This document shows positions 889-25,050 of a DNA stretch of 25,050 nt, one piece after another. Position numbers and translations under genes: made by a program. Origin of the DNA: a virus; IMG/VR virus record IMGVR_UViG_3300048033_000542, positions 1-25,050 of that record, one strand, 5' to 3'. The notes under the pieces are model-generated. The model searched no databases, was not told where the DNA came from, and saw nothing but the letters and a program-made list of their open reading frames with translations. Numbering within the stretch: position 1 is the stretch's first letter; each line of letters opens with the position of its first letter.

Positions 889-1224
889 ATGAAAGAAGAC
901 AAAGAGGTTAAGAAGAAAGCAGGACGACCAAAAGCAAAGATAGATGTAGAGATGATTGAGAAGTTAGCAAAGATACACTGTACACCAAGAGAGATGGGTT
1001 ACATTATGGGCGTTGACCATAGAACAATTATTAAACATCACGGTGACGTAATAGAACGAGGAAAAGCAAACGGGCGCCTTGCGATACGAAGAAAACAAAT
1101 TGAAGTCGCTTTAAGTGGCGACAAAACACTTTTGATTTGGTTGGGTAAAGTTCTACTTAATCAAAGTGAGACACAAATGCACGATGAAGATTCTAAGATA
1201 TTACCTTGGAATGATGACATTTAA
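889..1224 (+). CDS. terS: Terminase small subunit
   Basis: The 111-residue protein opens with a basic stretch and AGRPKAKID (residues about 11-19), followed by a helix-turn-helix-like segment CTPREMGYIMGVDHRTIIKH. It ends with RRKQIEVALSGDKTLLIWLGKVLL, a pattern common in small terminase subunits of tailed phages. Such proteins bind the packaging-start DNA as an oligomer and hand it to the large subunit. It lies two genes before the large terminase, as expected. A GGGAGAAAG ribosome binding site precedes the ATG. The packaging site it recognises is not identifiable here. Confidence 0.75.
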   Translation: MKEDKEVKKKAGRPKAKIDVEMIEKLAKIHCTPREMGYIMGVDHRTIIKHHGDVIERGKANGRLAIRRKQIEVALSGDKTLLIWLGKVLLNQSETQMHDEDSKILPWNDDI

Positions 1225-16309: not shown

Positions 16310-16338
16310 TTGACTTTTAATAAATACTATGTTACAAT
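16310..16338 (+). promoter_or_regulatory. Promoter P2 (sigma70-like, extended -10)
   Basis: TTGACT (16310-16315), 17-base spacer and TACAAT (16333-16338) preceded by TGT. The predicted +1 near 16345 is the first base of a 7-bp hairpin (16345-16351/16359-16365, loop GAGTAAT). It drives the 16393 gene. Confidence 0.85.
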
Positions 16339-16392: not shown

Positions 16393-16587
16393 ATGAAATT
16401 ATCAACAGAAGAAATAGTAGCAGAATTAGACGAAATCATCTATGTAGATGGTGGTTTAGAAAACAGAATTACTCAAATTTTAGAAATGAACCCGGAACTT
16501 TCATCTTTTGATGACGTAGTAGCAGAATTAGAATATGAACTCGATGATAAAGATGTTTCTTTATTAGAAGATGCGAGTGTTCTTTAA
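16393..16587 (+). CDS. Small, highly acidic protein (possible DNA mimic or inhibitor)
   Basis: This 64-residue protein has about 19 Asp/Glu and only three Lys/Arg residues. It is predicted mostly helical (STEEIVAELDEIIYVD, then ENRITQILEMNPEL, then DDVVAELEYELDDKDVSLLE). TAGGAGAA precedes the ATG, and it has its own promoter (P2). Early, promoter-proximal, very acidic small phage proteins include DNA mimics that block restriction enzymes or other host DNA-binding proteins. That is analogy only, with no sequence match claimed. An overlapping frame starting at 16329 is rejected because its ATG lies inside P2. Confidence 0.8.
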   Translation: MKLSTEEIVAELDEIIYVDGGLENRITQILEMNPELSSFDDVVAELEYELDDKDVSLLEDASVL

Positions 16588-16625: not shown

Positions 16626-16654
16626 TTGACTTACTAAATAAAAGAGCGTACAAT
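16626..16654 (+). promoter_or_regulatory. Promoter P3 (sigma70 consensus-like)
   Basis: TTGACT (16626-16631), 17-base spacer and TACAAT (16649-16654). It shares the CGC before -35 with P1 and P5, but lacks the TG extension. It lies directly in front of ~680 bases without a credible gene, and is the best evidence that this region is transcribed as an RNA. Confidence 0.85.
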
Positions 16655-16657
16655 ACA

Positions 16658-16725
16658 ACTAATAACTAATAAAAAAACTAATACAAATCCCCCTCTTACA
16701 ACTAATACAATTCCCCTCACAGAAC
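16658..16725 (+). repeat. ACTAATA repeats and paired CCCCTC tracts at the 5' end of the P3 RNA
   Basis: ACTAATA occurs at 16658, 16665, 16677 and 16701. The last two head an imperfect ~24-base duplication that ends in a pyrimidine tract (ATCCCCCTC, then TTCCCCTC). The same ACTAATA immediately precedes GGAG in the leaders of the 16393 and 17642 genes. The segment is predicted single-stranded. Confidence 0.6.
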
Positions 16726-17275
16726 CCTTTCAAATAAGATTAAGGTTGACACGCCGACTGTTATTGTGTTACTGAATCCCATCTGATGTGTGTGGGTAGG
16801 TAAGATTGCTTATTATCTAATTCAAGTGACTACCCTGTTATGCAGGATGCCTTAAAAGAGCCCTGAACTGGGATTGCTTTTCGCTTGTCGTAATGGTTGT
16901 AATGTAGAGATACGTGAATAAAGTGAGTTGGAAAAACACGCTCGTAAGAGTAACCAACAAAAGCGTCACAATTACTGCTTAATCGGTAGTGATGCTTTGC
17001 GTTAAACAGACACGCTTGTAAAAGGAGACAGCAAAACCTGCCTTTCTCGAAAGAGTTAAGTTGATTAAGTAATGGACGAATGCTTCAAGTATTCTTTTAG
17101 TTACGCCATAATAGGCGTGACTATGGGCTCATCTTCAAGCAGTTAATAATTATTAAAATAATCATTTACTGGTTCTTTAAATATTTGTTTGTGGAAACAT
17201 AAAAATGATTTGGCTTTATTGAACGAGCAAAGCGAGTGAAATAAAACAAAGCGTTTTTGATGCCTTTGGCATCAC
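16661..17275 (+). ncRNA. Candidate large structured non-coding RNA (~600 nt)
   Basis: P3 reads into this gene-free region. Helices visible in order: 16775-16781/16869-16875 (AATCCCA/TGGGATT), enclosing 16794-16799/16830-16835 (GGGTAG/CTACCC); 16927-16931/16954-16958, enclosing a GTAA-capped CTC/GAG (16941-16950); 16960-16969/16989-16998 (10 bp, one wobble); 17021-17025/17041-17045 with an inner CAG/CTG; a GAAA-capped CTC/GAG (17046-17055); 17098-17107/17114-17123 (10 bp, one wobble, ATAATA loop); 17160-17167/17203-17210, enclosing TGTTT/AAACA (17186-17199); and a terminal TGATGCC/GGCATCA (17258-17274). The loop of the 16960 hairpin (ACTGCTT, 16974-16980) can pair with AAGCAGT (17137-17143), a possible pseudoknot. 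Size and GNRA loops recall GOLLD and ROOL RNAs; class not assigned. Confidence 0.7.
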
Positions 17276-17305
17276 ATATGAGTGTTTTATTATTTGAGTA
17301 AATAC

Positions 17306-17338: not shown

Positions 17339-17536
17339 ATGTTACATTACAAATTTAAGAGAACAGAAGATGGTACATACGTACACATCATATTAGATGA
17401 TAACTTTCTTGCTCCGCATCCGACACCAAGACCACCAACAGAACAAGAGATACAAGTGATAATGAAAAGAGAACGAATAAAGAAAGTCAAAGCAATACTT
17501 AAGGAGTACAATGAAAGAAGAGAAACAAAAACCTAG
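17339..17536 (+). CDS. Small basic protein with a proline-rich middle, unknown
   Basis: I prefer the ATG at 17339 (65 residues) over the in-frame GTG at 17282, which overlaps the possible -10 element and lacks a ribosome binding site. The 17339 site is itself weak. The protein has a short beta-like N-terminus (LHYKFKRTEDGTYVHIILDD), a proline-rich segment (APHPTPRPPTEQE, about 24-36) and a Lys/Arg-rich C-terminal helix (VIMKRERIKKVKAILKEYNE). No family is recognised. It lies just before the radical SAM gene but is separated from it by promoter P4. A role as a substrate or partner of that enzyme is only a possibility. Confidence 0.6.
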   Translation: MLHYKFKRTEDGTYVHIILDDNFLAPHPTPRPPTEQEIQVIMKRERIKKVKAILKEYNERRETKT

Positions 17537-17574: not shown

Positions 17575-17603
17575 TTGACTTTTAGTGCGTTTTATGTTAC
17601 ACT
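17575..17603 (+). promoter_or_regulatory. Promoter P4 (sigma70-like, extended -10)
   Basis: TTGACT (17575-17580), 17-base spacer and TACACT (17598-17603) preceded by TGT. Its short leader (about 30 bases) has no hairpin and contains ACTAATAGGAGAA. It drives the radical SAM gene. Confidence 0.8.
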
Positions 17604-17641: not shown

Positions 17642-18757
17642 TTGAACCACAACTTTATTACAAACAAACCTTTTCCACCTAGCAAAAAAATTAAACCATT
17701 GGGCGCAACTTCGCCGGTTGTATGGAGCATAGAACCTGCTTTCGGTTGTAATTTGAGATGCTCCCACTGTTGCGCCGACCTTATCGATAAGAAAGATAAT
17801 CATCTGATGAAAGAAGATGTATGGAGAGCGGCTTTTACAATTCTGAATGAAGTGTCTCCGTATGTTAGAGTTGATTTGTGTGGTTTCGTGGGCGAGCCAA
17901 CACTCAATGACGAACTAATGAAATTCATACCGATAGCACGTGAGTTAGCACCTCATTGTCAAATTCAAATTACATCTAATGGTACAAAACTTTTAACAGG
18001 CAAGTACAAGATGAAAGATTTGCTTGATGCTGGAGTGAGTATTCTGTATGTTGACCAATACGGCAAGCACGAAAGATTTGAAAAATTAGCAGAGGAATCT
18101 GGTTATCCTTGGTATCAGTATTATGATAAACCTGATAACGCACCGACTCCTTGGATGTATTATGGTCCAGAACAGAAGATGATTGTCTTAATGGATGAGC
18201 CAGCAACTTGGCCAGAGTCCAGAAAGAAGGCTGGTCTTTTAGGTAATTGGCTTGGTAATATGAATTGGGAACGAGGAGACGCACAAGAACAGTTCGGTAT
18301 GTTCCCGTTAGAGCATCCTCTTAAACGAAGATGTAATCAACCATTCTTGTATGTAACTGTTGCTTCTTGTGGAGAATATTTACTTTGTTGCCAAGACGGG
18401 CTTCAGACAACAGCAGGTAAATTTGGTAATGTACTAGATGGTGTTGAAGGATTTAAGAAGTTTTGGTATGGTGAAGAAATGCAAACTATTCGCCGTAGAT
18501 TGAGATACAAAAATCGGGCTGATACTGATTATGCTTGTGCTAAATGTAATATTACATTTTCCCGAAGTGACTTTAAACACTGGACTATTGAAGAAATTGA
18601 AAATCATTACGATGGTAAAGAATGGAAGCAACTAAAAGAAGACCCGACTGTAGAACGCTTTGATGCACAAGTATTTGATAAGTTATTCGATGCGAATGAA
18701 CTAAAAAAGAAACGAAACGTCAATAACGTCTTTAAATTACAAAATATTACAAAATAG
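17642..18757 (+). CDS. Radical SAM protein with C-terminal SPASM/twitch-like cysteine region
   Basis: The 371-residue protein starts with TTG, supported by AGGAGAA 6 bases upstream. The radical SAM cluster motif is CNLRCSHC (C36, C40, C43), with C44 adjacent. The SAM-binding GGEP-like motif is GFVGEP (81-86) and QIQITSNGTKLL (107-118) is a typical later strand. The C-terminal part has further cysteines at C231, C243, C249, C250, C299 and C302 (CNQP, ASCGEYLLCC, CAKC), the layout of SPASM/twitch domains that hold auxiliary iron-sulfur clusters. Such enzymes often modify peptides or proteins, some act on other substrates. It has its own promoter (P4). Substrate unknown; 371 residues is normal for this class and argues against a short QueE-type enzyme. 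Confidence 0.88.
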   Translation: MNHNFITNKPFPPSKKIKPLGATSPVVWSIEPAFGCNLRCSHCCADLIDKKDNHLMKEDVWRAAFTILNEVSPYVRVDLCGFVGEPTLNDELMKFIPIARELAPHCQIQITSNGTKLLTGKYKMKDLLDAGVSILYVDQYGKHERFEKLAEESGYPWYQYYDKPDNAPTPWMYYGPEQKMIVLMDEPATWPESRKKAGLLGNWLGNMNWERGDAQEQFGMFPLEHPLKRRCNQPFLYVTVASCGEYLLCCQDGLQTTAGKFGNVLDGVEGFKKFWYGEEMQTIRRRLRYKNRADTDYACAKCNITFSRSDFKHWTIEEIENHYDGKEWKQLKEDPTVERFDAQVFDKLFDANELKKKRNVNNVFKLQNITK

Positions 18758-24800: not shown

Positions 24801-25050
24801 GCGGCACCTAATATGGGCAATTGGGATTATTCAGCAGATACAGGACACGCATTAGTTGGTATCGGAAAATTTATGACTGGGCATCCGATTGTAGGAATAA
24901 CACAAACAGATAATGTTAACGAATCACAGCCGAAAGCGATGTTCTTGGTTAATCATATGGATTACGACCACAGTGGTTCAGGAAGTGCATTAGGCGGACA
25001 CGGAGTAGCAGTAGACTTTAATCTTCAAGATGAAGCAGGCAATTTGCATC
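21846..25050 (+). CDS. Long tail fibre protein, N-terminal and central parts (continues at 1-597)
   Basis: ATG at 21846 follows TAGGAGAA. The frame stays open to the right end and rejoins the left end at the 127-base duplicate. The full protein is 1,224 residues (3,675 bp including stop, counted once across the overlap). It is rich in Thr, Asn, Gly and Val, with many short beta-repeat motifs such as GTIDNTTIGATTPSTIVTT, NLTVNGTTTTVNTETINLAD and later LGSASKQWKEVFVGPGSLYI, all common in trimeric phage fibres. The N-terminal ~100 residues probably bind the virion. No intramolecular chaperone or peptidase is seen at the C-terminus. Confidence 0.85.
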   Translation, partial: MSGEVLNLTVTEQTLFNLTITADDSTVTEVQTTTDNIIINTSMDEIDATMVNNGTGLGVYKQKDMTKFIMRSITDDDKTIDTSLQNSNDEIRIKLPDAGISTPDNFQINADSDSSAKIELPGPTVDLSKAKLLTDLDVNSKDLDSVATITATTGAITTVNATTINTSDLNVSDDLVVTDDLTVHGGVQIAENLDVYGNATFNENINQSIGKTATLPTLNSSNISGGNVTISNANINGGEIDNTTVGAGGSSSGRFTTLESASVDINGGAIDGTTIGATTPSTIVTTDLTATTVDINAGTIDNTTIGATTPSTIVTTNLTATTADINAGTIDNTVIGATTPVAGTFTTATATTGVITTVNATDVNVSDDLVVTDDASVGGDLGVTGNTVLTGNLTVNGTTTTVNTETINLADNNILINSNHTGSPTQDGGITIERGTSDDALFQWNETTDVFEFKEGSSYADIKADKAEFTDTVSIGGTTPNVVGAVDLAVADSFTVGGDMTVNGTSHFSVLGFTNRIKVDCNTLATTSGHGIVLWDSTRATNDLTTSNNADDILHPNGTAPTFDSGDSPVNYITNESIEMHLDAIGTGGPGETHTNITAGKLNVQLGDTTEDGETTIYGGNIGATRSVVVGGTTPYISSNSFSNPGGFFTTVVPSIATGEPSQDRHWHGSFLGSAGKEFAQLHVKEIYGTEMHGDLIPGEDNEHSLGSASKQWKEVFVGPGSLYIDGHKVLGSDDSGTINISTDTGQTLDILAGGGSGTAGAVNIASRSNVTNLNDTTVNLGPSVGGGSINARGTLEAPDLHNGALEFSGTLINQTDTNQNLEIRTNGTGYLHANVADLYVGPLTGAVKIDESSISVSNTNGDLNLTSNGTGTVNIDDFEISHYSQFGENFGKINATGTDQNLCLQATNGTGYFVVNSPNQYFGAASGVKITNAPGSATTLSGHGYQGEALNITGNLSGNLTANATTENLTTKNVKANPSSVTIPAAPNMGNWDYSADTGHALVGIGKFMTGHPIVGITQTDNVNESQPKAMFLVNHMDYDHSGSGSALGGHGVAVDFNLQDEAGNLH
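22674..22853 (+). repeat. 90-bp in-frame tandem repeat within the fibre, two units
   Basis: Units begin at 22674 and 22764 and each encode 30 residues (ATTPSTIVTT, a variable NL/DL, TATT, INAGTIDNT). A further partial copy follows. Synonymous differences between units show they have diverged under selection for the protein repeat, unlike the nearly identical 54-bp units of the other fibre. Confidence 0.8.
24924..25050 (+). repeat. 127-bp exact terminal duplication (matches 1-127)
   Basis: The last 127 bases equal the first 127. The repeat starts and stops inside a coding frame, and 127 is a common largest k-mer in short-read assemblers. It most likely reflects overlap closure of a circular (or circularly permuted) genome rather than a physical terminal repeat. 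Confidence 0.93.

Follow-up and report, generated by a model that had tools for sequence, protein, structure and literature searches.

A structured noncoding RNA common to small tailed phages and to tRNA-integrated islands of Polynucleobacter and its relatives

A stretch of the + strand of a small aquatic phage genome, positions 16729-17126, is near certainly the core of a new class of structured noncoding RNA, because two independent homologue sets both show strong covariation and a match to it is absent from Rfam. The window, that is, the whole stretch of DNA analysed here, is a 25,050-base virus record that begins and ends with the same 127 bases (1-127 and 24924-25050); this direct terminal repeat makes the record probably a complete genome of ~24.9 kb. 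The list of large phage RNAs is very short, and the new class joins it well supported, with a comparative secondary structure that includes two pseudoknots. It differs from GOLLD and ROOL in having a genetic context that hints at timing and cultured hosts such as Polynucleobacter sp. MWH-HuK1, so that its function is testable by deletion. Should the islands of freshwater bacteria that also carry it be satellites, it would be, to our knowledge, the first structural RNA common to phages and satellites.

The RNA is located in a noncoding stretch between a 64-aa gene that ends at 16587 and a small gene at 17339. The initial annotation had proposed that a consensus-like sigma-70 promoter fires here into a structured RNA of ~600 nt with no credible gene. 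The promoter is indeed present as a sequence match, TTGACT-17-TACAAT (10/12), at 16626-16654 on the + strand, and the three forward frames of the core offer stop-free runs of only 25-32 codons, with no frame conserved among homologues. The length was an overestimate by about a third, since the conserved core, delimited by alignments, covariation and a match to covariance model R1 (see below), spans ~400 nt. Upstream of it on the same strand is a 5' leader (16661-16728), its start predicted from the promoter, that carries CTAATAC repeats and a ACAGAACCC box and is conserved in phage copies and missing from bacterial ones. The 3' tail (17127-17281, + strand) is outside the conserved RNA and aligns only among the closest relatives, alignment 3' of ~17155 being confined to close relatives; a search of this tail found no intrinsic terminator. 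ARAGORN and Rfam models found no tRNA or tmRNA in the window.

The surroundings of the RNA gene hold two further features. On either side of it, at two neighbouring small transcription units, are similar promoter-like repeats at 16310-16338 and 17575-17603 (TTGACTTTTA...TATGTTACA, 78% over 27 nt). Adjoining the RNA, window 17642-18757 encodes a radical SAM/SPASM protein that is 75% identical to one on L001, a viral contig of 305,782 bp; such a gene would not be expected in a phage of 25 kb. As a partner of the RNA this gene was rejected, since L001 is without the RNA and the link is not conserved.

Homologues of the RNA were recovered by several routes. A tail-protein search led to a 26.5-kb phage contig (L012) with a copy of 16701-17205 at 71.5% identity, set among intergenic sequence and accessory genes that are not alignable to the window. 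Three patterns taken from conserved blocks yielded more copies on viral contigs, a fourth added two, and a profile search confirmed the RNA in 18 viral contigs besides the window. When a 17-base pattern was run against 85,000 bacterial and archaeal genomes, one real bacterial copy emerged, in Polynucleobacter sp. MWH-HuK1 (E 4e-42), and a search of the genus placed the RNA in 33 of 186 Polynucleobacter genomes. R1, a covariance model of the 5' domain whose E-values are rough, matches the window, one of its own seed sequences, at 16728-16895 (E 6e-31); beyond the Polynucleobacter sample it found copies in a genome of the same order (G875) and in one of the same phylum (G1439). Within a class-wide sample of 369 genomes the RNA occurred only in Polynucleobacter itself, none was found in the plasmids searched, and BLAST of the window, L023, L026 and L107 copies against 50,697 deposited phages returned nothing real. 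In a tree, the RNAs of phages and those of islands fall largely into groups of their own, L027 standing between the two, so the sharing is old or rare and not the result of recent transfer.

The phage alignment (A2, 12 copies) and the bacterial alignment (A3, 26 copies) were each folded independently, and the same succession of helices was obtained from both. Among the 12 phage homologues, with 92 pairs counted, 97.4% of cells are paired and 38 pairs have changed on both sides, against 18.7 in shuffles, while slid controls are 35-43% paired; the bacterial set is 97.5% paired, with 38 double-changed pairs against 23.1 in shuffles and slid controls at 28-42%. Covariation among collected homologues had been proposed at the outset as the check on a structured RNA, and compensatory changes are found in the phage and bacterial sets alike. 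In a tree-based null test of our own, 11 column pairs reached significance, 10 being canonical; the test also revealed a helix that had not been predicted, pseudoknot A. Pairs on the + strand frequently alternate with G-U, which identifies the + strand as the RNA. Folding energy was not decisive (z = -1.74 and -1.42) and is insufficient alone to reveal a structured RNA.

Along the + strand, the core comprises helices P1 (16747-16752/16766-16771) and P2 (16778-16783/16790-16796), both backed by pair counts, P3 (16803-16806/16815-16818), in which 4/4 pairs covary, and the long-range helix P4 (16823-16829/16881-16887; CAAGTGA/TCGCTTG), which, like hairpin P5 (16834-16838/16842-16846), is supported by pair counts and the tree-based test. 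A closing helix, P7 (16893-16897/17120-17124), is kept in phages and covaries weakly. Hairpin P8 (16902-16915) corresponds to bacterial helix 7 and is capped by the GNRA tetraloop GAGA (16907-16910); such a tetraloop, its N and R varying, is found in 37 of the 47 copies with a locatable hairpin. Pair counts also support helix P9 (16927-16931/16954-16958), hairpin P10/P11 (16961-16969/16989-16997 and 16973-16976/16985-16988), the invariant GCGT/ACGC hairpin P12 (16999-17015), hairpin P15 (17046-17055; CTC-GAAA-GAG, with GAAA at 17049-17052) and hairpin P16 (17078-17084/17088-17094), joined by the alignment itself in the case of helices P13/P14 (17021-17045), with their near-invariant AGCAAAACCTGCCTTTC sequence. 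The 3' hairpin P17 (17102-17107/17114-17119) has a bacterial counterpart of nine pairs. Two hairpins of close to 10 bp and two GNRA-capped stems had already been called in the window; both hairpins are real and show covariation (16961-16997, and 17102-17119 with its neighbours), and the stems are P8 and P15. Window 16924-16962 and 16998-17036, both within the core, form a 39-nt direct repeat (72%) that is possibly an internal duplication.

Two pseudoknots are conserved on the same strand. Pseudoknot A pairs 16733-16738 (AATAAG) with 16809-16814 (CTTATT) in the loop of P3; its pairing is 100% in bacteria, where three pairs change on both sides, and 98.6% in phages. A helix that RNAalifold placed at 153-156/318-321 of A2 competes with it and is probably wrong, pseudoknot A being better supported; the pair 16939/17117 flagged by the tree-based test is probably an artefact of alignment or clade. 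Pseudoknot B joins loop 16978-16984 (CTTAATC) to 17063-17069 (GATTAAG), with 7/7 pairs covarying and 100% paired in phages, and 98.5% of cells paired in bacteria. The initial annotation was right that this loop pairs at a distance and wrong about its partner: 16974-16980 with 17137-17143 is 64% paired, not above shuffles, and is not conserved. Nor is the long-range AATCCCA/TGGGATT pairing that it listed, which at 69% paired again does not exceed shuffles.

None of the copies tested, phage or bacterial, matches a family of Rfam 15. The window found no match among Rfam families at E up to 5, the RNA region alone gave chance hits only against all families at E up to 10, and tRNAs were recovered as internal controls in one Rfam search; RNase P, self-splicing introns, 6S and tRNA/tmRNA (ARAGORN or Rfam models) gave no match either. 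A divergent GOLLD or ROOL had been offered earlier as the alternative to a new class. GOLLD (RF02032) is likewise a large, structured RNA of phages and prophages, but nothing in sequence or structure matches, and the present RNA is about half as long; GOLLD is often found beside phage tRNA genes, of which the window has none, though the islands integrate into tRNA genes. At a threshold of 150 bits its covariance model found nothing in G000, G001, G002, G080 and G131, and its best score elsewhere was 13.7 bits, away from the RNA locus. ROOL (RF03087) is also a large ornate phage RNA with pseudoknots, and it too is unmatched at its threshold of 99.1 bits in a targeted search run without a positive control, the cmscan covering the same model. 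A homo-oligomeric RNA cage is a further hallmark of both classes. Comparable size range, a phage or mobile-element context and an ornate pseudoknotted fold would all suit a very divergent homologue of either; with neither model matched in the targeted searches or in the cmscan against Rfam that had been suggested as a check, and with no tRNA gene in the window, such kinship is very improbable, and it is the new class that covariation in both sets upholds.

Three other known systems invite comparison. The pRNA of phi29 (RF00044) has in common with this RNA a late role near packaging genes, proposed here by inference only, yet the present RNA is more than twice as long, matches no pRNA model, and belongs to a phage that is not of the phi29 type. 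Polynucleobacter-1 RNA (RF01718), named from the same genus (PMC2864571), is in Rfam and found no match in the window, L107, L148 or L157. A parallel comes from the phage ICP1, with its orf-less transcript, and the satellite PLE, in both of which the most abundant transcripts are noncoding (PMC7567579); R1 found nothing in ICP1 at 60-105 kb, including the ~1-kb orf-less gap at 80.1-81.1 kb.

In the phages, the RNA has the same orientation as the structural genes and is encoded 3' of the tail-hub genes, between tail and terminase genes. In five divergent phages (L027, L031, L033, L036 and L068) it is followed by a few small genes and then by a homologue of the protein encoded at window 889-1224, a candidate, by position only, for the small terminase subunit; in L031, L036 and L068 the large terminase is also downstream. 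A sigma-70-like promoter scoring at least 9/12 is close upstream in 10 of 17 phage copies, against 4.2 expected, and L021, L023 and L068 have 12/12 promoters at the equivalent place. The RNA is accessory in phages, being absent from related tail-gene contigs, L004-L011 among them, of which L006 covers the equivalent region. No recombinase or DUF6641 homologue was found near the phage copies; the RNA is all that phages and islands have in common.

The bacterial copies (L134-L164 and L180-L183, from Polynucleobacter and other Pseudomonadota) belong to tRNA-integrated islands that form one family, each with DUF6641, DUF6876, a pair of tyrosine recombinases and the RNA; the family is apparently undescribed, as a literature search for DUF6641 found no paper. 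Of 31 Polynucleobacter loci, 29 have a divergent DUF6641 gene upstream of the RNA, and 29 have a small tyrosine recombinase (149-237 aa) downstream on the same strand, with variable genes between it and the RNA. The aligned small recombinases retain the R, HxxR, H and Y residues, a larger integrase is 2-4 kb away in most loci, and for DUF6641 and cluster 8 no relative of known structure was found. Eleven islands of 5,643-13,702 bp are bounded by exact direct repeats of 39-73 bp, and these att repeats are mostly within, or adjacent to, annotated tRNA genes (Met, Phe, Lys). The island of G1439 (Pseudomonadota), 10,869 bp with a 45-bp repeat in tRNA-Cys, has homologues of the same genes and carries a restriction-modification pair of type II. 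Type III systems adjoin two further RNA loci, and restriction-modification was present in all three cargo sets scanned for defence. One island, L152 (G184), seems to be inserted between a pair of similar genes (462 and 447 aa) that share stretches of 49-69 bp, a mode of insertion that differs from the tRNA sites.

Site-specific integration with att repeats and an integrase, a mark of satellites, is thus found in the islands; a search of them for packaging or capsid genes found none. PICMI and other small phage satellites are similar in size (~6 kb), integrase, specific chromosomal site and anti-phage cargo, and those of the PICMI type are without packaging genes as well (PMC10803314). Unlike PICMI, the islands target tRNA genes and carry a second small tyrosine recombinase, DUF6641 and a structured RNA, with dependence on a helper only presumed. 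From size, gene poverty and the PICMI-like defence cargo, we infer that the islands may be phage satellites; they could also move by conjugation or by themselves.

A simple sigma-70 promoter was found upstream of only one of 35 island RNAs, with nine expected by chance, and this absence prompted the search that led to a different element. In all 11 of the delimited islands a [CA]TAAATA box precedes the RNA by 4-11 nt, where 0.22 would be expected per 40-nt stretch, and TAAATA with any preceding base occurs 39-121 nt before the small recombinase in eight of the 11, both counts being inflated by sequence relatedness; the distant L181 has the box too. These boxes match the late promoter consensus of T4 (TATAAATA) and Aeh1 (CTAAATA), which is located at -13/-12 to -6 (PMC1524935), and with this spacing the island RNA is predicted to start roughly where the conserved fold begins. 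Immediately upstream of the box, islands such as L157 and L162 have inverted repeats (for example ACCAAATAA-21 nt-TTATTTGGT or GAACAG-25 nt-CTGTTC), possibly the operator of a dimeric regulator, whose arm sequence varies between lineages.

The best explanation, to which we give a probability of roughly 45%, is a trans-acting RNA of the late phase, serving packaging or assembly, that is common to small phages and satellite-like islands. Window 16661-17126 would act as a folded RNA, either a scaffold or the core of an RNP, and not as mRNA or antisense. If the box is read as a T4-type late promoter, the island RNA would be made once late transcription begins in a helper phage, and the phages would make their own RNA at that same stage. 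The RNA would then act in trans, as a component or scaffold in genome packaging or particle assembly, and the islands, as phage satellites, would have a copy of their own because their mobilisation depends on that function too. What suggests packaging or assembly is position and timing only. Against this explanation, the sigma-70-like promoters of the phages need not be late, phages and islands have only the RNA in common and the islands no packaging or capsid gene, and the RNA is accessory, missing from some sister phages. A bolder version, in which an assembly- or packaging-stage RNA of small tailed phages was adopted by satellites under the helper's late promoter, and satellite DNA enters particles through a hijacking factor that is this RNA and not a protein, is possible but doubtful.

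An abundant anti-host or decoy RNA, inactivating the ribosome, RNA polymerase, a nuclease or a defence effector on behalf of phages and islands alike, is a tentative alternative that we think decidedly weaker than a late role. Very high abundance is known for large phage RNAs, ROOL reaching the level of 16S rRNA and GOLLD pulling down with ribosomes (PMC12286853), and some phage copies have perfect sigma-70 promoters; yet conservation of the whole ~400-nt fold with two pseudoknots exceeds the needs of a simple sponge, and the predicted island promoter is of late and not early type. The type II and type III restriction-modification systems of the islands might instead suggest an RNA carried as cargo, as part of a defence or anti-defence system. 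This is improbable, for the RNA is core where defence genes are variable, and the smallest islands (5.6 kb) retain it without identified defence genes. Somewhat less unlikely is an RNA of island mobility or regulation, a partner of the small recombinase or DUF6641 in excision or copy-number control that phages later captured: RNA and small recombinase have the TAAATA box in common and co-occur in 29 of 31 loci and in the distant L181. The phage copies, however, have no recombinase or DUF6641 homologue nearby, and the G-U pairs and strand-specific pairing favour an RNA over a folded recombination site.
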